64,000 bases of DNA from Apricaphanius iberus (lineage: Eukaryota; Chordata; Actinopteri; Cyprinodontiformes; Aphaniidae), in the NCBI GenBank assembly GCA_028564705.1, contig JAPXFQ010002153.1, positions 992,001 to 1,056,000 of the forward strand, written 5' to 3'. The position numbers and the translations under genes are program-made. This document shows, piece after piece, positions 8,046 through 63,593 of the stretch (the first letter of the stretch is position 1; the number at the start of each line of letters is the position of its first letter). The notes beneath the pieces are model-generated. The model ran no database searches. It was not told where the DNA came from and saw nothing but the letters and a program-made list of their open reading frames with translations.

Positions 8046-9345
8046 TAAGTGGTTTCCAGGGAACTTTCCAACGGAACGGAGACAGAAGTGAGAGTGTTTT
8101 TGATTTCCTGGTTTAACCTTTCGCACAGACCGTTTGACTGAGAATGATAACCGGAGGTGAGGTTGGAGGTGGCACCCAGGGCTAAACAAAACTGTTTCCA
8201 GTGAAGGATGAGTTAACAGACGGTTTTTTGGATGATGGAAGCTTGGAGAGAGGAACGAGGTGACAGGCTTTAGAAAAGCGGTCTACAATGGTTACACCGG
8301 GAGTCCTGTGATGAAATCTAGGGCTATGTGAGTCCAGGGTCGAGTGGGTATAGAAAGAGGTTGAAGAAGACCAGCAGGAGGTTTATGGGTTGGCTTGTTT
8401 TGACTATAAATATGTCAGGCGGAAACGTACTCGGTGACATCTTTGTTGAGGGATGGCCACCAGAAGTACCTTCTAAGAAAGGTAATGGTGTGGCTAGGTC
8501 CCGGGGTGACAAGATCATTTTGTGGTGTGAGCCCAGTGGATAGTCCGTGCTCGGACGGCAGATGGCACACACAGACGGCCTGGAGGTCCCCCAGCTGGGT
8601 CAGGTTTGTTCTGCAGTGCCTTCTTGGTGGATCTTTTGATGTCCCAGGTGAGGGAACTGATGAAACAGGAGGGTGAGAGTATGGTGGTGTCTTGAGGAGT
8701 GTTTTCATTGGGCTGGTGGATCATGGAGAGAGCATCTGATTTCTTGTTCTTTGAACCAGGTCGGTAGGAGATGTTGAGGTTAAAGCGGGAAAAGAAGAGG
8801 GACCAGTGGAACTGTCTGGGATTCAGTCTCTTGGCGGATTGGAGGTATGAAAGGTTCTTATGATCAGTCCAGACAATGACGGGAATCTCTGTACCCTCCA
8901 GCCAGCAACGCCGCTCCTCCAGAGCCATCTTGATTGCCAGGAGTTCTCGGTCCCTGACGTTGTAATTTTTTCTGCTGGCAAGAATCTCCTAGAGAAGAAA
9001 GCACAGGGGTTAATCTTGTGATCAGATGGGGACCTTTGGGAAAGGATGGCACCTATTGCTGTGTCAGATACTAGGATGAGTTGTTTTCGGTCCGGTTGAG
9101 TGAGGATGGGAGCTTGGACAAAGGCTTCTTTAAGCGTGATTAGCCTCTGTGGTCCAGTGAAAGGTTTTCTTTGAAGAAGTAAGGGCGTTTAATGGTCCGG
9201 CGAGTTTAATATACTTATTGATGAAGCGTCTGTAGAAGTTAGCGAAACCCAGGAAGCATTGTAACTGTTTTCGAGACTCTGGAATGGGCCAGTCCTGAAT
9301 GGTCTTTATTTTAGCTGGGTCTGCCCTCACCTGCCCGTCTCCCAA
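8046..9345 (-). pseudogene. Ty3/Gypsy pol relic (RT, RNase H, integrase)
   Basis: Reading down the minus strand, the order is standard for Ty3/Gypsy pol. The end of the reverse transcriptase connection is at 9345-9130 ([13 protein letters not shown], then [10 protein letters not shown]). RNase H follows at 8928-8720 (IVWTDHKNLSYL, RYRPGS-type block read as SYRPGSKNKKSDAL). The integrase zinc-binding region lies near 8480-8415 (FLRRYFWWPSL), and the integrase core begins with LDFITGLP near 8310 and DRFSKACHLVPL near 8270. The core end reads [18 protein letters not shown] near 8150. Part of the core between the last two blocks is deleted, and stops and frameshifts are present. The 5' part of the element is lost at 9345. 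Confidence 0.85.
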
Positions 9346-13279: not shown

Positions 13280-15322
13280 ATGTTATTAAAAAGTACTAAG
13301 TGTTTGATCACTAAAATCAGATTGACTATCACTTTCAAAGTGAACATGTGTGTCTGTGTGTGTTTGTGTGTGCGTCAGACCTCCAACTCCATCTGCTGGT
13401 GAAACAGAGAAATCTCCTAGCTCTGAACTGGAGGTCCGCACCCCTGATCAGTCAGCTTGTTGACATCCTCTGCGTGGGCCTTGACTCCACCTCCTGGTAC
13501 ATTGGTCTCTCCAGTGGCCACGCCCCCGGCAGGCAAAACAACGGTCATCGTCATCACCTGATTCTCTGTTATTGTCTTTGTTGTTTCGCCGGTCTGGGGA
13601 AAAATGGCGTCGGCTTGAGTTCTGCTGCTGTTGTCTGCCTCCTCTTCAGTGCTCACGAGGACCTGTAGGCTGACGTCGGGGCGGTCCACTCCTGTAATCT
13701 TTTGTGACTGCAGAATACATCGTTAATGCCGCTTTATGCATGTCTGTTTCTCTCTTTGACTGCAGCTCACTTTGGGTTTTTTTCAACTCACAGAGAATCA
13801 CATATTTGCGAAGGTCACTAAAATTCATTCCAGCATCCAAACCAAAGTATTTTTCCATTACTTCTGCTCGAAGTTCTGGCAATAAAGCACCAAGAACTCT
13901 GTCACAAAGCATATTTTCGTAAGCAAAACCAGCAAAATCACCTTGTTCCGGTTTCTGACGTCCACTAAACTGCTCCAAAGGTTCTCCTAATCTGTGAATA
14001 AAGTCATCTACATCTTCTCCAGGTCTTTGTTTCACAGAATGCAGCTTAGTCAAGTTCGGCCTTGTCGGAAATTCTTTTCATTGGCTTTACAGAGCTTAGT
14101 TATAGCTGCGGAATATTTAGAGCTTACCTCTCGTCCCCGTCACCGTGCTCAAGCTTTGCACGCAGGCCCGCTGCAGGCAAACTGTCAGCTTCGCAGCTTC
14201 GGCGGCTTTGAGTTTGCGTTTCAGAATCCGACCGATCTCTGCACCGGTCGGCTTGTGGGACAGACAAATATCTTCTAATTCCCTCGCGAAGTCACGCCCG
14301 TTGCAGGTGATCGGCGGCAGGCCTGAGACAGCCTGGTCCCAGTCCGAATCACTCCAGGCTCGGAAAACAAGCATTTTTCCACTCGCTCCAGCTACCTCAA
14401 GCATCGGGAAAAAGTCTGAACAACATCGTTATTATCAATTTCAGTGTCTTTCACCTTACAGCTGTTGCACGCAGCGGCTTTCCGCGTTCTAGACGCAGGC
14501 GGGGATGTTGTCTGCTGGGGCGATCTGCAGACTCTAGTAGTCTTTTCTGTTTTGCTTCGTCCAACACCTGCTTCAGACATTCAGTGTGGTGTCTGGCCCT
14601 TTCGAGAGCAGGGCTACCCAATTCGGCTTCAGTTTTTAGTTCCTTTGTCCTCTGAATCTCTGCTTTCGGCGGAGTGTCTGCACGTACCTTTGACTGCTTT
14701 GGCTGCTCATCACTGGGGCCCGCCTCCGCTCGTTCGCGATAGGCTGCTGCTCCCGTCTGTTCCTGCGGATCTGACAATAACTGTTTGGCAGAAAAATATG
14801 GTGATGAGCTTGGCATTTCTTTTGTAGATCTACACTTTTGCTCAGCGCTAGGAGGAGGTTTGACGTCCGTGTCGTGTGGAGTGACGTCATTACATAAAGT
14901 GTCTAAGAGTGGACCTGTCGGCTGAGTGTGTGTGTGTGTGTAGGAAACTTAACAGAGCGAATCTTTATCCTTTTGCGTTTGGGTTAATACCGGAATAATC
15001 TAAACCACCTTGCAGCTCCGTAAAGCTGGTTTTCCGCTCACAGCAAACCGGCTCATCTAGCCACACCTTTAACACCTTTCTTTGTTTTTCAATCTTAAAG
15101 TTTATATGAAGCTCCCCGCAAAAAAACCTTAGATTGCAATTTCTCCCCCTCTGAGATTAATTTCTGCTCGATTTCTGCAACGTCAAGACTACCCCAATCG
15201 GGAAATCCCATTTTTTTAATCCAAAAGTGAACAAATTCTAAGCATTCTTGCCTGTATTTATCTCGCATTGACCGACAGACACTACTGTCCGGAACCGAAA
15301 ACTTGGACTTCGCTGTGCCCAT
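13280..15322 (-). pseudogene. gag: Retrovirus-like gag gene, broken
   Basis: On the minus strand the gene starts at 15322 with MGTAKSKF, an N-myristoylation-type start as in retroviral matrix proteins. About 75 codons are open, then the frame breaks. A proline- and charge-rich linker (14816-14451) and a stretch at 14404-14117 follow in changed frames. A capsid-like segment (14053-13646) contains KQRPGEDVDDF. One in-frame TGA (13646-13648) interrupts it; the same frame then resumes and encodes a CX2CX4HX4C zinc knuckle at 13540-13499, with another stop near 13470. So matrix, capsid and nucleocapsid parts are all recognisable in order. No pol or env was identified. The leader is split by the LINE at 15363-16480. 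Function: virus-like particle structural polyprotein in the family; here a relic. Gypsy gag is the alternative. Confidence 0.75.
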
Positions 15323-15362
15323 TATGCAAAGAGAATGAAACCCAGCAAAAACTCTCGTTAAT

Positions 15363-16480
15363 TAACGTTAAGTACAGAGGGCAGAACTCCACAATGTTTC
15401 TGTGCTTCTTGGATGCCTCCAAAGCATTTGACCGCATCAATCATGGCAAACTGCTTGAAAAACTGCAGCAGCGAGGGGTTCCTCCCTACCTAATCCGGGC
15501 CCTAGGTTATTGGTACACGCATCAAACTATGCAGGTTAGATGGGGAAGTGCAACATCAAGTCCTTTTTCTGTGACTAATGGGGTGAGGCAGGGTGGGATC
15601 CTGTCACCCATGCTTTTTAACCTTTACATGGACGATCTCTCCCGAACATTGAAAAACTGTAAGACCGGCTGCATTATAGGGGAGAGACTACTAAACCATC
15701 TACTTTATGCTGATGACTTGGTCATCATGTCACCCTACTCAGCAGGTCTTCAGCAATTGCTTAATGTGTGTACTGAATATGGTGAACAATATGATATCAA
15801 ATTTAACCTGAAAAAGACTGTTGTGATGATTGTGAGGACTAAAGAGCAGCATAAGGCTGTATTTCCCATGTTTCACTTGCTAGGAGGGGAACTGGCAGTT
15901 GTGGAAAAAGTGAAGTACCTCGGTCACATCATCAGGAGTGATCTCTCTGATGATGATGACATCCGGAGGCAGTATTGTAAATTGTACGCACAAGCTAATA
16001 TGCTGGTACGGAAATTCGGCATGTGTACAGAAAATGTAAAAATAGCTTTGTTTAAAGCCTACTGCACACCACTCTACACTGCCCACCTGTGGTGCTGCTA
16101 CACAAAAGCTAAATTTCACAAGCTGCAAGTAGCATACAACGATGCTTTTAGGATTCTTTTGAAAGTCCCTCGCTGGACCAGTGCCAGTCAGTTGTTTGTG
16201 CAGAATGAAGTGATCACACTAAATGCTGTCATAAGGAATGTTGTTCATAAATTTATGATGAGACTTATGGACTCACAAAATGAAATTTTAATTGTTTTTA
16301 CATGGCCTGACCAGAGCAGTGTCCGGTACAGCTCGCTGCTTTGGAGGCACTGGAGAAAGTGTTTATATGGATTATAGTAATCCCCTGTTTTATTTTTCTG
16401 TCTGTCTGTATCTATTGTATGTTTCCTGTGGACCTTTGTTTCTCGGTCTGAATAAATAAAAGTATCTAACTCTTTTTGAG
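15363..16480 (+). mobile_element. 5'-truncated LINE reverse transcriptase
   Basis: An open frame runs to 16377. The reverse transcriptase starts around 15391 with FLCFLDASKAFDRINH (motif A with the first Asp), then NGVRQGGILSPMLFNLYMDD (motif B) and LLYADDLVIMSP (motif C). A conserved C-terminal region reads KYLGHIIRSDLSDDDDIRRQ and CTPLYTAHLWCCYT. A tail with AATAAATAAAAGTA lies at 16451. The frame is uninterrupted but lacks endonuclease and the N-terminal reverse transcriptase, so it is a typical 5'-truncated insertion. The open frame extends back to 15268, but its first 30 or so codons are antisense gag leader, so the true LINE junction is near 15363. Clade uncertain (RTE/CR1-like group). 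Confidence 0.85.
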
Positions 16481-29803: not shown

Positions 29804-30116
29804 TTACAGAATTGCTCATCAAGTTGATATCTGTACAAGATAATGATTTATTTTATGTAACATTTTTTTCTAACTGAGATACACCAGAAATGTATTTGAT
29901 ATGTTTTATTTTAGAATTTGTATATTGTTTTTGTCTGTTTTGCTCTGTCCCTCTATTTTCTTTTTCCCTGTCTCAACTTATAGAAAACCAGACTGACTGT
30001 TGCTTTTTGCCCACACTGTAATGTGATGTTATGTCAAAGATATGATATTATATGTCTGATTTCAAAATACCAGTTATGGATTTGAGCTGTGCCAGGTTCT
30101 GCTCAACTCCTCAGGT

Positions 30117-31130
30117 CGCCTTTATGCTGCAATTTCTGGTGTATGGGGATCGTTTGTCACCAACTGCATCACATCCTACAACCCTGGTCGACACATCACC
30201 ATTGATGAACAGCTTTTCCCGTCAAAGACTCGCTGCTTTTCACTGCAATACATTGCAACGAAACCTGACAAGTTTGGGATCAAGTTTTGGGTGGCTGGTG
30301 ACTTGAAATCCAAATACATCTGCAATGTCCCATATCTTGGCAAGGACCCAAGTCGTCCCAGTGGGGAGAGGCTATCTGAGAATGTAGTTATGAGGCTGAT
30401 GGAACCATTCCTGGACAATGGCAGAAATGTTACCATGGACAATTTCTTTACATCGCTGTCACTTGCACAAAGACTGCTTAGCCGGAAAACCACCATCCTT
30501 GGCACAGTCAACAGGATTCGGCAAGAAATTCCACAATCAACAAGACAGGGACCACAATGAATTCCCCACTCAGGTATTTTCAACCACGGGTGCCACGCTG
30601 ACGGTGTATGCGCCCAAACGGAAGAAGACAGTCTACATTCTCAGCAGCATGCACAGTGTGGTTCAGACTGAAAATACCACCAAAAGGAAGCCAAACACTG
30701 TCACCCTTTACAACACCATAAAGTGTGGCGTTGATGTGATGGACCAGATGGTGCGGGAGTACACTGTCCGCACATGAACACGGCGCTGGCCAGTCGCGGT
30801 GTTCTATAACATGATTTATATGGCAGCACTGAATGCATATGTGCTCTATCAAGCATGCACCGGGAGGCAGGAGAGACGGGTGGACTTCCTGGTGGAGCTT
30901 GCAAGAGAGTTGGCTCACTCTCATGTGGGTGCAAAGCAGGCACAAAATGGAACAATTGCTTCGGCAACAACCTTCAACACCTAGCCCTGGGAAAAGACCA
31001 ATATGTCAGGTTAAAATTCCGTGTACAAGCAATCATGCCACTGTGCGATGTATTGACCGCTACAAATACACATGTGGCAAACGCAGAAAGGAGATGGCAT
31101 AGCAGTGCCAGGATTGTGAGTGATTATTGA
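30117..31130 (+). pseudogene. piggyBac-type transposase pseudogene
   Basis: A long frame begins inside the DDE domain: VWGSFVTNCITSYNPGRHIT, IDEQLFPSKTRC (first catalytic Asp), KPDKFGIKFWVAGDLKSKY, and VTMDNFFTSLSLAQRLL (second Asp). It breaks at about 30557 and continues in another frame through TVYAPKRKK to KCGVDVMDQMVREYT (third Asp), then a stop at 30775. After it come NMIYMAALNAYVLYQ and a cysteine-rich C-terminal tail near 31010-31110 (CIDRYKYTCGKRRKEM). All three catalytic aspartates are still encoded. The N-terminal third is missing. An AATAAA signal follows near 31224. In the family this protein performs precise cut-and-paste at TTAA; this copy cannot. Confidence 0.88.
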
Positions 31131-52340: not shown

Positions 52341-52455
52341 ATGCTGGTTTCAAAGCTCTGAATGTGAAAATGAATTTATTTTTAATCTGATGTAACAATT
52401 TGTAGAACTTCCATTTACTGCAATTACAGCTGCAGGTCTTCAGGAGTGTCTCCAA
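52341..52455 (-). mobile_element. Tc1/mariner relic flanking the 52.5-kb transposon
   Basis: TTTGTAGAACTTCCATTTAC, GCAATTACAGCTGCAGGTCT and GGAGTGTCTCC (52400-52453) follow the order of a segment found near one end of fish Tc1 elements. The presumed continuation, AGACAGATTTTTGGCC, lies just past 55815, which suggests the relic was split by the transposon between. Confidence 0.45.
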
Positions 52456-52485
52456 CGTCAGCCTAATAGCATTTCTGCCTAACTC
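52456..52485 (+). repeat. Left terminal inverted repeat (30 bp)
   Basis: Inverted match to 55786-55815 with one difference (T against A at the eighteenth base). Confidence 0.9.
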
Positions 52486-52705
52486 TTTTTTTGGCCAAAT
52501 TGAGATATTGGCCTAACTCTACTCTCCTTTCACTGCTGCACCAACCTGTATAACTGCCTATGTTCTCAGCCAATCAGAAGGCTTGCATAATTCAAAAAAC
52601 ACTATCTGCTTTAGTCATCTAATTGACTTGGGCATTTTTGATGCCATATAAAAATGTGCCCAAGTCATCTCAAAATGACTTGAGCAGTTTTTGCGCTACA
52701 CAGCA

Positions 52706-55452
52706 ATGGGTGCCCCCATGAAGAACAAGGCTCGTCTTAGCATAAATGAAGCATTGAATCTCATCTTTGATTCATCAGGTAAGCTTATTCATATTTCTCA
52801 AACATTCTATACACTAAAGTCACTTATGAATTCTTCTAATCATGTTTCTGCAACAAGGGAATAAGGACTGCAAAATAGCTAGCCTAAAGCTAATGTTTTA
52901 AGCTAAAGCAAAGCTAAATTCTATACAGTGCATCAGTTACATTTTGTTTGGTAAAATAATACTAGCTATAAATATATGAACAAAATTCTTGATTTGAGTA
53001 GATATACTGTAGTCTGTTAAAAATATCAACACTGCTGTTGATTGTTTAATAGCATTATATTTAGCATTTATTTTAGCAGGAATTTATTTGGTTTATTTTA
53101 TATGAATTTGCCTTTTGAGTGTTTTATACATTTCATTGTTAGTTTTATATAGAATTTATTTCCGCAAACAAAAAAAAGAACTGTTGCTGTACTATGTTCT
53201 GCTTCAGGATCAGGAAATCAACATGATATCAATTCAGAGAGTGAGTTTGGACATGAGGAAGAAGATGGGGCAGGAAGTGACAAGGACATGGACACCTGGC
53301 AAAATACTGAAGAAGAAACAGCAGATGAAGCTTCCAGAGCTGCTCCTGATTCATGGTCAGAGAGTGACCATGATGACCCTATCTTGGATAATGACTATAT
53401 ACCCAAGAAAGAAAACTGGTCAACAAGTGGAAGTGATACAGACTCATCTCAACACAGTGAGGAAGAAAAAGGTGAGGAAGTTGAACACAAAGAGGAGGGA
53501 GGAGGTGAGAGGAGTGAAGAAAGAGGACATGCATGTAAACGTCATAAGAATCCAAGGTCACACATGTGGAAGCGACAGATGATGAAAGAGAAACGTCTAA
53601 AGGGAGAAAGTTACCAAGATGCAAAAGGAAAGGAGAGACAGCCTAAGACCATGGGCCCACCCTGTAGATCACAGTACTGCTTAAGGTCGACAAAGCGAAG
53701 TTGTGAACTGCTTTGTGGTGAAGAGAGGACAGGTATTTAAAAAAAATTCTGGTCCATGCCCTCCTGGGAGACACAGAAGCTGTATATCCAGGCTTTAATA
53801 GACAATGTAAGTGATTTGTTGGAGTAAATTTGTCATCTCTGCTGTCTCCTCAGCTCATCTGCCTGTACTTCAGTCTATCTGGATTTGCTATTGTATTTTC
53901 CTTTACCTACAGGTGCCTATAAAGCAGAGTAAAGCCAGTGCTGCATCAAGGAGAAAACATTCTCTATTATAAAACTTGCAACTGGCAGATGGCCGTACAC
54001 TGTGTGTAAGAATCTTTTCTGTTCAACACTTGGCATTGCCCCCAGAACCATTGGATCATGGTTGAACAGGAACGTCAATACAGATCTACCCAAACCCAAG
54101 ATCAATAGGACTGGTAAGTAAATCACAAAATAATTATTGTACTTGAAAATTCGATTTCAAATTGTTGTGGGAGAGGGGTTATTATATCCAGTAATGGCGT
54201 ATTTGCATGATCTTGCTTTAGTTACTTGCAAGTCTATAGTGTATCTCTATTCTAATTTCCATGTTTTATTTGTACTTGTTAAGGATTGGCTCACATGTCT
54301 GCCTACCGTTCCATCCCATTACTGCCGCCATGTTCCCTCCTATCAAGACACGAAGTTTCTGGAGCCTGGAACAGCTATTTGTGACCTGTACAAACAATAC
54401 TGTTAAGCTGTTAGTGAGAATGGAGCACGGGTTGTGAGTGAGGGGTATTTCCGCAAAGTGTTTCGTGAGTTGAAATACTCTGTGTTCATACCACGGAAAG
54501 ACCAGTGTGATGTATGTGTTGGTGCCAAGGCAGGAAATGCAGATCAGGATACCCTTAATGCTCATTTGAAATTAAAGGCTGAAGCTCAGGCTGAAAAATC
54601 TATGGATAAACAGGAATCCAGTGACAAACTCTCAGTGTGGACAATAGACCTGCAGCGTGTTCTTTTGTGCCCCAAGACCCAAGCGAGCACAATGTATTAT
54701 AAAACTAAATTGCAGATGCACAACTTTACTTGCTTCAACCTGGGTAACAAAGATGGCTATTGTTACCCCTGGGAGGAGCACAAGGGCTCCCTCAGCAGCG
54801 AGGTTTTTGCCCATCTGCAGTTCAAACACTTTGAGTCAGTCTTAGAGGCCAACCCAAATATTAAAAAATCATAGTCTGGAGTGATGGCTGCGGCTATCAA
54901 AATCGGTGTTGCACCATTGCAAATGCGTACCTTGATCTGGCCATAAAGCATGATATCACAATTGAACAAAAATTTCTGGTTGCAGGGCACACACAAATGG
55001 AGTGTGACTCCATGCATAGCTGCATTGAACGCCGTACCAGGCAAGACATTTACACTCCGCGTGATTACATCGGTTTTTTTTAAACTGCACGTTTGAACCC
55101 ATCCCCGTACAAGGTCACCCAGTTGTCCCACAACAACTTCATGAAGTTATCTGGGGCCTATGTCACAACCATCCGGCCAGGTAGAAAACCAGGTGATCCC
55201 ACAATCCATGATCTTCGGGCTCTCCAGTACTTGGCAGATGGTACGGTTCGCTATAAGTTAGCCTTTGAGTCAGACTGGGAGGGCCTGCCTCAGCGAGTAA
55301 CCATCCCCAGAGAACCATTCCCCTGGGTCCCACTCTTTCTGACCCAATTGCCACTTACTCTGAGGAAATTCCAGGACTTGCAGTCAATGAAACTCGTCCT
55401 ACCAAGAGTGGTCCATGACTACTACAACAACCTGCCTCACCAAGGCAAATAA
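52706..55452 (+). pseudogene. DUF7869-like transposase gene, four exons, few lesions
   Basis: Exon 1 (52706-52778) starts MGAPMKNKARLSINEALNLI and ends at GTAAGC. Exon 2 (53208-53806) is acidic, then basic: HMWKRQMMKEKRLKGESYQD and TMGPPCRSQYCLRSTKRSC, a W-K ... G-x-x-Y ... PPC-x-C-type N-terminal signature of this family; donor GTAAGT. Exon 3 (53913-54113) encodes the CKNLFCSTLGIAPRTIGSWL helix region; exon 4 (54284-55452) the core. Core motifs: PRKDQCDVCVGAK, WTIDLQRVLLCPK (Asp at 54647), VWSDGCGYQN (Asp at 54883), AGHTQMECDSMHS (Glu at 55000, Asp 55006, His 55012), and DYIGFF. Lesions: frameshifts at A-runs near 53742 and 54865, one in exon 3, and in-frame stops near 54403 and 55081. An AATAAA signal follows at 55718. 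It presumably cut and pasted this element; activity is lost. Confidence 0.78.
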
Positions 55453-55717
55453 AACAATCTGGGTTAGGCAAGTGAAACATTGTTTCACGTTAGTTAACTT
55501 TAGGTCTTAAGTTAAGATAATAGTTAAATAACCAGGTTATGTTAAGGCAAGAAACAAGTTTGATGGTTTTTACTTTATTATAAAAACTGCCTAAGTCAAA
55601 TTGAGTTCCCTGCAAAATGTGCACAAGTCAGTTTAATATGTGATCCAATAGTTATTGTGTCTGTTTTTTTATTTCAAACTTGTTCACACATCTGGTGGGA
55701 GTCACCTTTAACATATA

Positions 55718-55723
55718 AATAAA
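55718..55723 (+). terminator. Polyadenylation signal of the transposase gene
   Basis: AATAAA about 265 bases after the stop codon and 60 bases before the right inverted repeat. Confidence 0.55.
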
Positions 55724-55785
55724 AAGTTCTTACAATTTAGTGAAAAAAAGGTGTTTTTTCTTCTTTTCCAAAAACCTGAAAAAAT

Positions 55786-55815
55786 GAGTTAGGCAGATAT
55801 GCTATTAGGCTGACG
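55786..55815 (-). repeat. Right terminal inverted repeat (30 bp)
   Basis: The inverted partner of 52456-52485. Confidence 0.9.
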
Positions 55816-55894
55816 ATATCTCAAGACAGATTTTTGGCCAAGTATTTTTATTTCCAAAACAGGCAAGCATAGTCACACTAAAAGGAGACCAGCC

Positions 55895-57520
55895 TTTTAA
55901 TTTTGTGTCTAGCCGATTCCCAGTTTGATTTATGTCAACAAGGTAACAACAAGGTAATTCAAGGTGCTTTGCATAATTCAGTGATAAAGAAACAAACAAA
56001 CAAATGATACAAGCATGAAAATAAAAACAGATATTGAGAATAAAGCATAAAAATAATAAAAATACAAAATTAGAGAAAAGAAAAAAAAGAAAAAAACAAC
56101 AATTAAAGCATAAAACAAACACAACATATGATACACAATGAAGCATAATTGTTTACTGAAAGGAAGCTCTAAACAGATGAGTTTTAAGATCTGTTTTAAA
56201 GCAGATTAGTATTTCAGCAGCTTTGCAGTCATCAGGAAGTTTTTTTCGAGATAAAGGGAGCAAAGAAACTGAATGTTGCTTCTCCATTCTTGCTTCTAGA
56301 GATGATTAGCAGACTAGAACTGGGGGATCTGAGTGGTCCGGATGGTTGGTATGGCGGCAACAGGTCTTGAACATATTTTGGAGCTAAGCCATTTAATGAT
56401 TTATAAACTAGTAGAATAATTTTGAGGTCTATTCTCTGAGCTACAGGGAGCCACTGTAAGGACTTTAGAATTTTGGTGATGTGCTCTATTTTCCTCGTTC
56501 TATTGAGAACGCGAAGAGATCTGCATCAGCTGCCTGATTGACTTTTTAGGCAGAATTATGAGGACGCTGTTGCAGTAATCGAGTTGACTAAAGATAAATG
56601 CATGGATGAGTTTTTCAAGGTCCTGTTGCAACATTAGTGCTTTAATCCAAGAAATGTTCTTAAGGTGATAGAAAGCTGACCTTGTTATTACTTTTATGTG
56701 ACCCTGGAGGTTCAGTCCTCATTACACCTAGATACCGGGCCTGGTCAGTAGATTTTGTAGTGGTATTAACTGAAGCTCAGTGGTCCTCTTTAAGTCCAAA
56801 AATCGCCCACGTGAGCGTGGAAGTCCCCCAGCAGAATGAGGCAGTGTCCAGAAGGAGTACTCTACAGCACCCCCTCCAAGGACTCCAAGAAAACGTTCCT
56901 ACCCTCATCTATGGTCACGAAGGCTGGGTGGTGACCGAAAGAATGAGATCGCGGATACAAGTGGCTGAAATGAGTTTCCTCCGTAGGGTGGCTGGGCTCT
57001 CCCTTAGAGATAGGGTGAGAAGCTCGGTCATCTGGAGGAGGCTCAGAGTAGAGCCTGCTCCTCCACATCGAGAGGAGCCAGTTGAGGTAGTTCAGGCATC
57101 TGATCAGGATGCCTCCTGGACGCCTCCCTGGTGAGGTGTTCTGGGCACCTCCCACCGGGAGGAGACCCAGGGGAAGACCCAGGACTCGCTGGGGGGATTA
57201 TGTCTCCCCGCTGGCCTGGGAACGCCTCAGGATTCCTCCCGAGGAGCTGGCCCAAGTAGCCGGGGAGAGGGAAGTCTGGGTCTCTTTGCTTAGGCTACTG
57301 CCCCCGCGACCCAACCCCGTATAAGCGGAAGATGATGGATGGATGGATGGAAGTCCAAAAATAATAATTTCAGTTTTTTTTCTATTCAGTGGGAGACGAT
57401 TGTGGGACATCCAGCTATTAATTTGCTCAATGCATCCACTTAGGTTTTGGATGGGTTGGAAGTCACCTTTTGACAATGTAATGTAAAGCTGAGTGGACAC
57501 TAGAGTGGACTCTGATATTT
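55895..57520 (-). mobile_element. L2-like LINE 3' part, interrupted
   Basis: Reading the minus strand, 57480-57360 gives [20 protein letters not shown], then TEIIIFG, the block after the YADD motif in L2/CR1 reverse transcriptases. After the RTE-like insertion the coding part resumes with SQLDYCNSVL, and with an L-x-WLPV block read from a CAGTGGCTCCCTGTAG word, then FFAPFISKK-type residues. The 3' untranslated part ends near 55925 with CTTTGCATAATTCAG (complement), and a CACCTTGAATTACCTTGTTG tail. Frames are broken. It is an old copy, 5'-truncated at about 57520. Confidence 0.7.
56804..57350 (+). mobile_element. RTE/Rex3-like LINE fragment nested in the L2
   Basis: Frames read YGHEGWVVTERMRSRIQVAE, MSFLRRVAGLSLRDRVRSSV, then [20 protein letters not shown], and [20 protein letters not shown]. 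This is the C-terminal end of an RTE-like ORF2 abundant in fish; one frameshift is present near 57110. The 3' tail is a (GATG/GGAT)n run at 57331-57350, as reported for Rex3-type elements. Perfect 12-bp flanks AAGTCCAAAAAT lie at 56792-56803 and 57351-57362. Confidence 0.85.
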
Positions 57521-59785: not shown

Positions 59786-60463
59786 GCACTAACTAGGACA
59801 GGACCTAGCCGTCCTTCAACAGCTCCCGTGCAGCCGGGACCTCAGGCGAGCTGGGTGACTGTTCGTAGGAAGACTAGCGCCAGACCCCAGTCCGCGGCCA
59901 ACCTCCAGCCCCTTTCTCTGAACAATAGGTTCGCCCCGCTCAGCGACGCACCCGCCGAGCAGGAGAGGCCGATTCTTGTAATTGGCAGCTCCATAGTTAG
60001 GAATGTGGCTCCAGAGACACGAAAGACCACCGTCAAATGCCTTCCAGGGGCCAGGGCTGCGGACATTAGGTCCCATCTGAAGCTTTTGGCCAAGGACAAA
60101 CGGCGGTATAGCAGGATCGTTATCCATGCTGGTGGCAACGACACCCGGCGACGGCAGTCGGAGGTCACTAAAATTAGCGTAGCTTCGGTGTGTAGGGCTG
60201 CCAAAAAGATGTCTGACTCTGTAATTTTTTCTGGTCCCCTGCCTGATCGTACTAGCGATGACATGTACAGCCGTATGCTTTCGTTCCACCTTTGGTTGTC
60301 AAGGTGGTGTCCAGAAAACGATGTGGGCTACATTGATAACTGGGGGGCCTTCTGGGGAAAACCTGGACTGTTACGTAGAGACGGCATCCATCCCACCGAG
60401 GACGGAGCTTCGCTTCTTTCCAGGAACATTGATAGGGTTATCTCTAGTTCCCCAAAGCCGTGA
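59786..60463 (+). CDS. LINE ORF1, SGNH/GDSL esterase-type protein
   Basis: The frame is open from about 59765 to the stop at 60463 and has no upstream ATG, so the N terminus was lost by 5' truncation; a GTG occurs at 59828. Counting from there, a basic N-terminal stretch ([12 protein letters not shown]) precedes an SGNH hydrolase domain: [11 protein letters not shown] with the candidate nucleophile Ser at residue 54, GARAAD near 75-79, HAGGNDT at 100-106 and DGIHPT at 185-190 with Asp and His. This domain is known from ORF1 of CR1/L2-type LINEs, where it is thought to aid retrotransposition through lipid or RNP association. The end of this frame overlaps the ORF2 frame by about 200 bases. Confidence 0.8.
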
Positions 60464-63400
60464 CAACCCAGAGTCCAGCTCAGGGAACCCAGAGTCGAGC
60501 TCAGGGAAAGTCAGTCAGGGAACCAGAGTCCAGATCAGGGAACCCAGAGTCCAGGTCAAGGAACAGGGACTGCCACCCACCCACTACCCTATAGAGATAG
60601 TTTCCCGTCCACTACCCAAAACTAATGAATTAAAAGTTAATGCTACTAGAGCAAAGTATAAAAATCTCATAAAGATAAATAAAACTCGGACTGAACATAA
60701 AAACAAATCAATTAAATGTGGTTTACTAAACATAAGATCTCTCCCCTCAAAAACACTCTTAGTAAATGACTTAATTTGTGAAAATAATATTGATTTGTTT
60801 TGTCTTGCAGAGACATGGTTGCAGGAAGAGGACCATGTCACAATAAATGAGTCAACTCCCCCTAGCTACTTAAACTTTAGTGTCCCTCGAAGTACTGGTC
60901 GAGGAGGTGGAGTAGCAACTATCTTTCATTCCGATTTACTAATTAATCTCCAAAAAAATAATAGTTACAGTTCCTTTGAGCATCTAGTTTTTAGCTTTCC
61001 TCATACACATAACAAAGCAGTAAAGCCACTTTTGTTTGTGGTCTTATATCGTCCACCAGGACCTTATTCTCAATTTTTAGATCAGATTTCAGATTTTCTA
61101 TCTGACTTAGTTTTAAACACTGATAAAGTCATTATAGTCGGAGACTTCAATATTCATGTTGATAATGAAAGTGATAGTCTAAATACAGCTTTTAACACTA
61201 TCCTAGACTCAATAGGCTTTACTCAAAATGTGCAGGGACCAACACATTCTTGTCACCACACTTTAGATCTTGTGCTGTCTTATGGCATTGACTGTGAAGA
61301 AATAACAGTCTTTCCACATAACCCTATCCTGTCTGATCATTTCCTTATCACTTTTAAACTTACTCTAATGGATCATATCAAACCTGAAAGAAAACTTCAT
61401 TATACCAGAACGTTATCAGACAACGCTGTAGCAAATTTTAAAGAAGCTCTTCCAACTTTAATTTCCTCAGTTTATAAATGCAGAACAGAAAACAGTGATT
61501 TAACTCGTGACCCCTCACAACTTGACATTTTAGTTCATAGCGTTAATTCCTCCCTGCGTCGGGCAATAGACAAAGTTGCCCCCTTGAAAAGGAAGGTGGC
61601 TAGCCATAGAAGATTAACTCCCTGGTTTAATTTAGAGCTACGTACCCTAAAGCAGAATGTTAGAAAACTAGAGAGAAAATGGCGCTCCACGCATTTACAT
61701 GATTCCTTTTTAATATGGAAAAATAGTTTATTGCTATATAAAAAGAGCCTTCACACAGCTAGAACAGCATATTATTCATCTTTAATCGAGGAGAATAAAA
61801 ATAATCCTAGGTTTCTTTTTAATACAGTTGCCAAACTCACACAGGATCATAGCTCTATCGAGCCAACCATTCCCCAAGCTCTAAGCAGTGACGACTTCAT
61901 GCAATTCTTTATAAATAAAATAGACTCCATAAAGAATAAGATAATTGGGAACCTTCCCAATATGCTTGCTTCCTCCTTAGTTAATGAGGCAGCCTCAAAA
62001 ATGGTGGAACCTAATATATGCTTAAACTGCTTTAATGCAGCCGAACTTTGTGATGTACTAAAATTATTAGCTTCATCTAAACCTTCAACTTGCGTTTTAG
62101 ACCCAATCCCAACTAAACTCTTAAAAGAAGTTTTCCCTCTGATCGCTGCTCCAATTTTAAATATAATGAATCTATCCTTAGTCAATGGATATGTACCACA
62201 GGAGTTTAAGATTGCTGTAATTAAACCTCTACTTAAGAAACCCTCTCTTGATCAAAACGACTTAATTAACTATAGACCGATATCTAATCTTCCCTTCTTA
62301 TCTAAAATTCTTGAGAAAATAGTTGCACACCAGATATGTGAGCATTTAAACAATAATGAGCTGTTTGAGAAGTTTCAGTCAGGCTTTAGAGCTCATCATA
62401 GCACTGAAACAGCTCTGGTGAAGGTTACTAATGATATTCTCATAGCCTCAGACAATGGACTGGTGACCATTCTGGTCCTGTTAGATCTCAGTGCTGCCTT
62501 TGACACTGTTGACCACAATATTCTCATAGAAAGGCTTCAAAGTGTCGGTATAATAGGAACAGCACTAGGTTGGTTTAAATCTTATTTGTCTAACAGATTT
62601 CAGTTTGTTCAGGTAAACAATAGATCTTCCTCAACCTCAATAGTTACTTGCGGAGTACCACAGGGTTCAGTGCTTGGGCCGATTCTCTTTACTATATATA
62701 TGCTTCCTATTGGTAAAATAATTAGGCAGCATGGGATAAAATTCCATAGTTACGCAGATGATACACAGCTATATCTATCCATAAATCCTGATGAATCCAA
62801 TCAGTTAGGTAGACTACAGGCATGTCTGGAAGACATAAAAACTTGGATGACTCTAAACTTCTTGCTTCTAAATTCTGATAAAACAGAAGTTGTCGTCTTT
62901 GGACCAGAAGCTCTGAAAAAGAAACTACTTAGTCAGCCCCTTCACCTGGACGGCATTAAATTAGCCTCCAGTAATAAAGCAAAAAACCTCGGTGTCATTT
63001 TTGACCAAGATATGTCATTTAGAACTCACATTAAAGAAGTCTGTAGGATTTCCTTTTTTCACCTTAGGAATATTGCAAAAATTAGAACCATCCTGTCCAG
63101 GAATGATGCTGAAAAACTAGTCCATGCCTTTGTTACTTCAAGGCTGGATTACTGTAACTGTCTATTATCAGGTAGTCCACAGAATACAATTAAAAGTCTT
63201 CAGTTAGTTCAAAATGCTGCTGCTAGGATTCTGATGAATATTAAAAGAAGAGATCACATTTCCCCTGTTTTAGCTTCTCTTCACTGGCTCCCAGTAAAAT
63301 CTAGAATAGAATTCAAGATCCTCCTTCTGACATATAAAGCCCTTAATAATCTAGCTCCATCATACATAAGAGACCTGATTGTTCCATATGTTCCTAACAG

Positions 63401-63593
63401 AGACCTTCGCTCTCAGACTGCAGGTTTACTGGTAGTTCCTAGGATTTCTAAAAGTAGAATGGGTGGCAGATCTTTCAGCTATCAGGCTCCCCTCCTATGG
63501 AACCGGCTCCCAGGGTTGGTTCGTGAAGCAGACAATTTGTCTATCTTTAAAACTAGGCTAAAAACTTTCCTCTTTGACAAAGCTTACAGTTAG
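60258..63593 (+). CDS. LINE ORF2, endonuclease-reverse transcriptase
   Basis: One frame of 1111 codons is open without stops. The EEP endonuclease lies at residues about 153-370: LLNIRSL, CLAETW with Glu185, [11 protein letters not shown] at 292-302 and LSDHF with His361. The reverse transcriptase spans about 650-900: [38 protein letters not shown] at 799-808 and YADD at 832-835. A conserved C-terminal segment reads [20 protein letters not shown] and ends LFDKAYS. The protein nicks target DNA and copies LINE RNA onto it. L2 clade is most likely. The first ATG (60258) lies inside ORF1 in another frame, and no Met occurs between the ORF1 stop and the end of the endonuclease, so the real start is unclear. 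All catalytic motifs look intact. Confidence 0.92.
60464..60572 (+). repeat. Inter-ORF minisatellite in the LINE
   Basis: About five copies of a 16 to 22-base unit of the form CCAGAGTCCAGCTCAGGGAA, with deletions in some units. In the ORF2 frame it encodes repeats such as NPESSSG, then shifts to [13 protein letters not shown] residues, staying open. Confidence 0.85.

Follow-up and report, generated by a model that had tools for sequence, protein, structure and literature searches.

In a stretch of 64,000 nucleotides (nt) from Apricaphanius iberus (contig JAPXFQ010002153.1, positions 992,001 to 1,056,000; hereafter the window, whose own numbering is used below) we describe an inactive member of a DNA transposon family. 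The copy occupies 3,360 base pairs (bp) at 52456-55815 and holds the pseudogene of a transposase related to the Pfam family DUF7869. The family is young, small and low-copy. With a probability of about 0.9 we read it as a family of cut-and-paste DNA transposons that join to AT-rich sites over 4 bp by means of a three-aspartate (DDD) enzyme of the RNase H fold, for which Sola is the most probable superfamily. An earlier reading made from the letters of the window (the sequence-only reading) had already proposed a cut-and-paste element, and the termini shared over the copies, the DUF7869-related protein and its predicted RNase H fold agree with that proposal.

Ends, copies and target duplications

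The unit is bounded by inverted repeats. Repeats of 30 bp with 29 identical positions had been reported, which a direct count confirmed for the outer 30 nt; the repeats extend to 37 nt, of which 35 are identical (95% complementary), whereas shuffling the letters of both 400-bp end regions 200 times gave at most 25/37. The proposed element boundaries hold as well, as the four further full-length copies and the seven short derivatives found at other sites of the genome begin and finish at the same bases.

Searching the host genome (1.2-gigabase assembly) with the element gave at least 56 matching stretches; only the best candidates were scored, and all copy counts are lower bounds. Five copies are full-length, the window copy and those on contigs C1223 (L009), C103 (L010), C423 (L011) and C1211 (L012), with 0.3-2.6% divergence. 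L009 differs from the window copy at 11 of 3,359 aligned bases (0.33%), and the remaining three lie 1.6-2.6% from each other and from this pair. One copy (C1051) is truncated and rearranged. The seven short derivatives (237-246 bp) are internally deleted, retaining about 171 bp from the left end and 70-82 bp from the right; a search using one of them returned seven again, three of which, the query included, are identical over 245 bp. Older relatives were seen on C1957, C1739, C406 and C1843 as matching stretches of 68-89% identity.

The 4-bp flanks were read in the 13 copies with both ends recognisable, namely the five full-length copies, the seven short ones and an older copy in L014; L013, L015, L016, L017, L025 and L026 were excluded because the patterns used gave no pair of clean ends. 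Identical and mostly AT-rich 4-bp duplications were found in 11 of the 13, including every full-length copy but that of the window. Six of them are ATAT, and ATGT, ATTG, AAAT, ATTT and CCAT occur once each. When the right flanks were shuffled, 11 matches were reached once in 20,000.

The same type of protein lies between inverted repeats in three further families of this genome (B, C and E), detected through a protein search that gave at least 75 matching stretches; B and C show clear ATAT duplications. Family B (L046 and L047, 3.04 kilobases (kb)) reads CGACACC inwards from its left end and CGTCACC inwards from its right, and ATAT lies on either side of the element in 2/2 copies. Family C (4.40 kb, ends CGATGGCC) likewise has ATAT on both sides in 2/2 copies, on C1118 (L043/L050) and C770 (L044/L051). 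These two copies are 99.6% identical and free of stops, with 616 amino acids (aa) from the first ATG in L043, and the family has probably been mobile very recently; a third copy, L045, was read at its right flank only (ATAA). Family E, the most remote, is found on C286 and C1180 (about 3.7 kb, ends GAAGAG), and its duplication is unreadable because it is inserted in AT repeats. At 42.7 bits its 450-aa frame exceeds the cut-off for DUF7869, and hhalign gives 98.7% to A1. An additional group on C1734, C906 and C972 showed about 30% identity in the protein search.

The transposase gene and its probable catalytic residues

The gene consists of four exons, with the start codon at 52706, the stop codon at 55450-55452 and GT/AG at every junction in L010-L012 (Table 1). 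Relatives P0007 and P0004 align unbroken over all three inferred exon junctions, P0002 and P0003 over the last two. Besides the polyadenylation signal at 55718 there is an AATAAA at 55448 that overlaps the stop codon. The sequence-only reading had described a four-exon gene with canonical splice signals and a polyadenylation signal; the layout, the junctions in L010-L012 and the AATAAA at 55718 support it, but exon 4 of the window copy has neither its own acceptor nor its first codons, because 43 bp that L010-L012 have are missing at 54280. The reading frame of the window copy is further disrupted by frameshifts, by several stops and by smaller deletions that affect exons 3 and 4, and its gene is a pseudogene.

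Table 1. Features of the element and its immediate flanks in window coordinates.
Feature	Position	Strand	Basis
Left flank CCAA, expected duplication site; differs from right flank	52452..52455	.	Direct reading
Left terminal inverted repeat (5'-CGTCAGCC...)	52456..52492	+	Repeat detection; terminus common to genomic copies
TATA-box-like TATAAAA upstream of start codon	52647..52653	+	Sequence reading; putative function
Exon 1 of transposase gene	52706..52778	+	Joined to exon 2 without a break in P0007 and P0004 (relatives)
Exon 2: acidic N-terminus and a motif with Cys; window copy with a stop codon close to the exon end	53208..53806	+	Splice sites, relatives
Exon 3: probable DNA-binding helices (putative binding); window copy with a stop and 4 bp fewer than L010-L012	53913..54113	+	
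Exon 4, remainder: catalytic domain and C-terminus; frame broken	54281..55452	+	First base set by alignment, may shift by a few bases
Probable catalytic D1 (WTIDLQ)	54647..54649	+	D in 209/212 and 78/78 relatives
Probable catalytic D2 (VWSDGCGYQN)	54883..54885	+	D in 210/212 and 75/78 relatives
Probable catalytic D3 (GHTQMECDSMHS), preferred to E at 55000	55006..55008	+	D in 205/212 and 70/78 relatives
Polyadenylation signal AATAAA	55718..55723	+	Sequence reading; putative function
Right terminal inverted repeat	55779..55815	-	Repeat detection; terminus common to genomic copies
Right flank ATAT, most frequent duplication among sister copies	55816..55819	.	Direct reading

To the relative counts in Table 1 the window type and its neighbours contribute 212 of 226 listed relatives (380-900 aa) and the remote type E 78 of 120 (380-720 aa), the rest having been dropped for length. 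A D...D...E/D triad had been suggested at D54647, D54883 and E55000. All three residues are found at these positions and the first two aspartates stand, but the third member is more likely D55006, two codons past E55000 in the window copy (ECD). At the glutamate, position 512 in the numbering of P0002, E is present in 203/212 window-type relatives and proline in 71/78 of type E; E55000 was rejected as third catalytic residue, and D55006 preferred, because the glutamate is replaced by proline in the remote branch while the aspartate is kept. The triad is thus most likely D54647, D54883 and D55006, equivalent to D394, D473 and D514 of P0002.

An RNase H fold had been expected in a structure prediction of a relative, and AlphaFold models of two relatives do show the RNase H catalytic order, the fold being assigned from VIA-align together with the order of its elements. 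In P0227, the model for type E (predicted local distance difference test, pLDDT, 88.3), the equivalent of D514 is D289, the third residue of helix 287-300, which begins at the proline. BFVD gave no match at E <= 0.001. When solved structures were searched by sequence, P0002 drew trypsins and A1 drew matches of its acidic N-terminus; we judged these to be chance in either case.

The noted resemblance to DUF7869 was borne out as kinship: the window protein is homologous over its catalytic domain to Pfam PF25273, a model whose name carries no function, and to proteins passing its cut-off. We call it DUF7869-related, and not a member of the Pfam family, because the window family scores under that cut-off. 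Besides DUF7869 the Pfam search gave only chance-level matches, as did NCBIfam (five proteins). Among the matches listed in the searches for relatives, the best with an organism name are fish proteins, and no source name contains that of a transposon superfamily. Three relatives, P0004, P0113 and P0264, carry host-gene names publicly (RISC-loading complex subunit TARBP2, FolD and epoxide hydrolase 2), which probably reflects misannotation or fusion of a gene model with a transposon.

The anatomy of the copies supports the mechanism class well, i.e. cut-and-paste movement by a predicted RNase H-fold DDD enzyme with 4-bp staggered joining. A full-length element carries one four-exon gene; in the sister copy with the least damage, about 696 codons would encode the product. 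The N-terminal helices of the transposase probably bind the 37-bp ends, and an active site of the form D-x78-D-x40-D would excise the element. Joining to cuts staggered by 4 bp at AT-rich sites, with ATAT preferred, would then leave the 4-bp duplications. The short derivatives are presumably mobilised in trans by the same enzyme, because both ends are kept in them.

Classification and alternative readings

The Sola superfamily was reportedly defined by Bao et al. in 2009. Its hallmarks are a DDD transposase and duplications of 4 bp; the inverted repeats measure 11-1124 bp and the elements mostly 2-9 kb (PMC10741241). Repbase treats Sola1-3 as a single superfamily (PMC4455052), and Sola occurs in teleosts and other animals; of the fish, zebrafish, medaka and stickleback are reported to have copies, and tetraodon to have none (PMC4746887). 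The article texts consulted showed neither a Sola sequence nor a link between Sola and DUF7869. Our elements agree with this description in the 4-bp duplication (11/13 copies and 4/4 copies of families B and C, the window copy excepted), in three conserved aspartates in RNase H order in two predicted models, in size (37-bp repeats, 3,360 bp; weakly diagnostic) and in their occurrence in a teleost, the likeness being one of description. We put the probability of Sola membership at about two in three.

Other superfamilies were considered and rejected. Kolobok and piggyBac have cut-and-paste movement and 4-bp duplications in common with the present element, though of TTAA (PMC9587614), and TTAA is absent among the 13 copies and the family B and C duplications read. 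Tc1/mariner duplicates TA (PMC10741241); no sequence relation to it was found (Mos1, SETMAR transposase domain), and the duplications here are of 4 bp and include CCAT, ATTG and AAAT. The hAT, P, MuDR, Kolobok and Dada group has a C/DxxH motif between the second D and the last acidic residue (PMC9587614), which occurs in only 4/212 and 2/78 relatives and is absent in P0002. The C(2)C and H(3-4)H motifs of the CMC/Transib group, located between the second D and the last E (PMC12730594), fare similarly: C(2)C is present in 0/212 and 0/78 relatives, and H(3-4)H alone in 9 and 4, including P0002.

Several observations weigh against the transposon reading or parts of it. The window copy itself, flanked by CCAA and ATAT, has no target duplication, and together with a small derivative, L020 (ATAT/AATT), it makes up the two exceptions among the 13 copies. 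With PF25273, whose cut-off is 26 bits, the window piece scores 19.7 and exon 4 of L010 17.5, and of ten relatives of the window family scanned only two reach the cut-off (P0071 with 27.2 bits and P0104 with 30.4 bits, both matches of the L010 protein search). A further acidic residue in the same helix as D514, E521 in P0002 numbering, is also conserved (200/212 and 70/78) and is an alternative third residue. Foldseek matched the first model best to the IstA transposase (E 1e-4), with a TM-score of only 0.17/0.28 and a root-mean-square deviation of 17, and found no match for the second at E <= 0.001. The spliced frame is broken in every one of the five full-length copies, the least damaged being L010 with one stop, so activity is inferred from sequence alone. 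Finally, the Sola filing is probable only.

One rival concerns the name. The DUF7869 transposons could form a superfamily distinct from all Repbase names, with only duplication length and the DDD triad in common with Sola; they would then be an unrecognised, animal-wide DDD superfamily preferring ATAT, of which several lineages have moved recently within a single genome and at least one family (C) has near-identical copies without interruptions. The Pfam, NCBIfam and source-name results given above are in its favour, as is the literature searched (5.39 million papers), in which DUF7869 is not mentioned. Moreover, Sola is said to reach bacteria (PMC10741241), and no relative was found here in plasmids or phages, nor confirmed in bacterial genome contigs, where a scan with two peptide patterns, a narrow and weak test, matched 14 stretches. 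On the other side, duplication length, triad, sizes and teleost occurrence all fit Sola (PMC10741241, PMC4746887), the bacterial scan was narrow, and so widespread a family would hardly have been overlooked by published fish repeat libraries. We consider a distinct superfamily rather unlikely. The earlier suggestion of a poorly described superfamily is accordingly upheld for the protein family, which has no functional name in the literature searched, but is doubtful for the element, which fits the described Sola.

A different question is posed by the unequal flanks of the window copy, which might be a composite produced by ectopic exchange or rearrangement between two insertions. Its flanks mismatch against 11 of 13 copies that match, and L009 is nearly the same element. 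Yet a later rearrangement beside the left end, misassembly or one-sided loss would look alike, and no second full copy of either 500-bp flank of the element was found in the genome; we consider this explanation rather unlikely. Up to 56 bp adjoining the left end are part of a short repeat, and when the joined flanks were compared with the four loci of the left-flank search, one being the window itself, none matched across the junction. That a host gene or pseudogene came to lie between inverted repeats by chance would account for the gene-like four-exon layout with TATA and polyadenylation signals, but is refuted by the copies: five contigs carry the same ends and gene, each between flanks of its own, and in four the duplications match, short derivatives keep both ends, and three other families are similarly arranged. 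We give it next to no credence, and retain the cut-and-paste transposon.

Neighbouring features and meaning of the family

The window holds other mobile sequences. On the forward strand, a non-long-terminal-repeat retrotransposon frame of 1,122 aa without internal stops is found at 60225-63593, with an endonuclease and a reverse transcriptase (Pfam Exo_endo_phos, E 1.5e-10; RVT_1, E 4e-39), another reverse transcriptase frame at 15220-16377 (385 aa; RVT_1, E 8e-30), and a transposase fragment of the DDE_Tnp_1_7 family at 30060-30560 (E 8.5e-31), which we take to be of piggyBac type. A retroelement RNase H fragment lies on the reverse strand at 8515-8988 (E 1.5e-14). About 130 bp to the right of the element, at approximately 55945-56315, there is a very abundant repeat (72-90% identity in the best 40 of 3,716 candidates, which were scored). 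Scans of the window for tRNAs and for Rfam families at the gathering threshold found nothing.

The element is of a known kind; new is that the DUF7869 domain has been linked, in families of one genome, to defined ends, to target duplications and to a probable triad. A probable function is thereby suggested for DUF7869, which is common in the gene catalogues of animals, where it is called 'uncharacterized protein' or wrongly named. The mechanism can be put to the test with family C, given its 99.6% identical copies, ATAT on both sides and stop-free frames. Should the DUF7869-related family prove to be Sola, the novelty would lie in the connection between a Pfam and a Repbase name; if it is not, an overlooked transposon superfamily would have been found.
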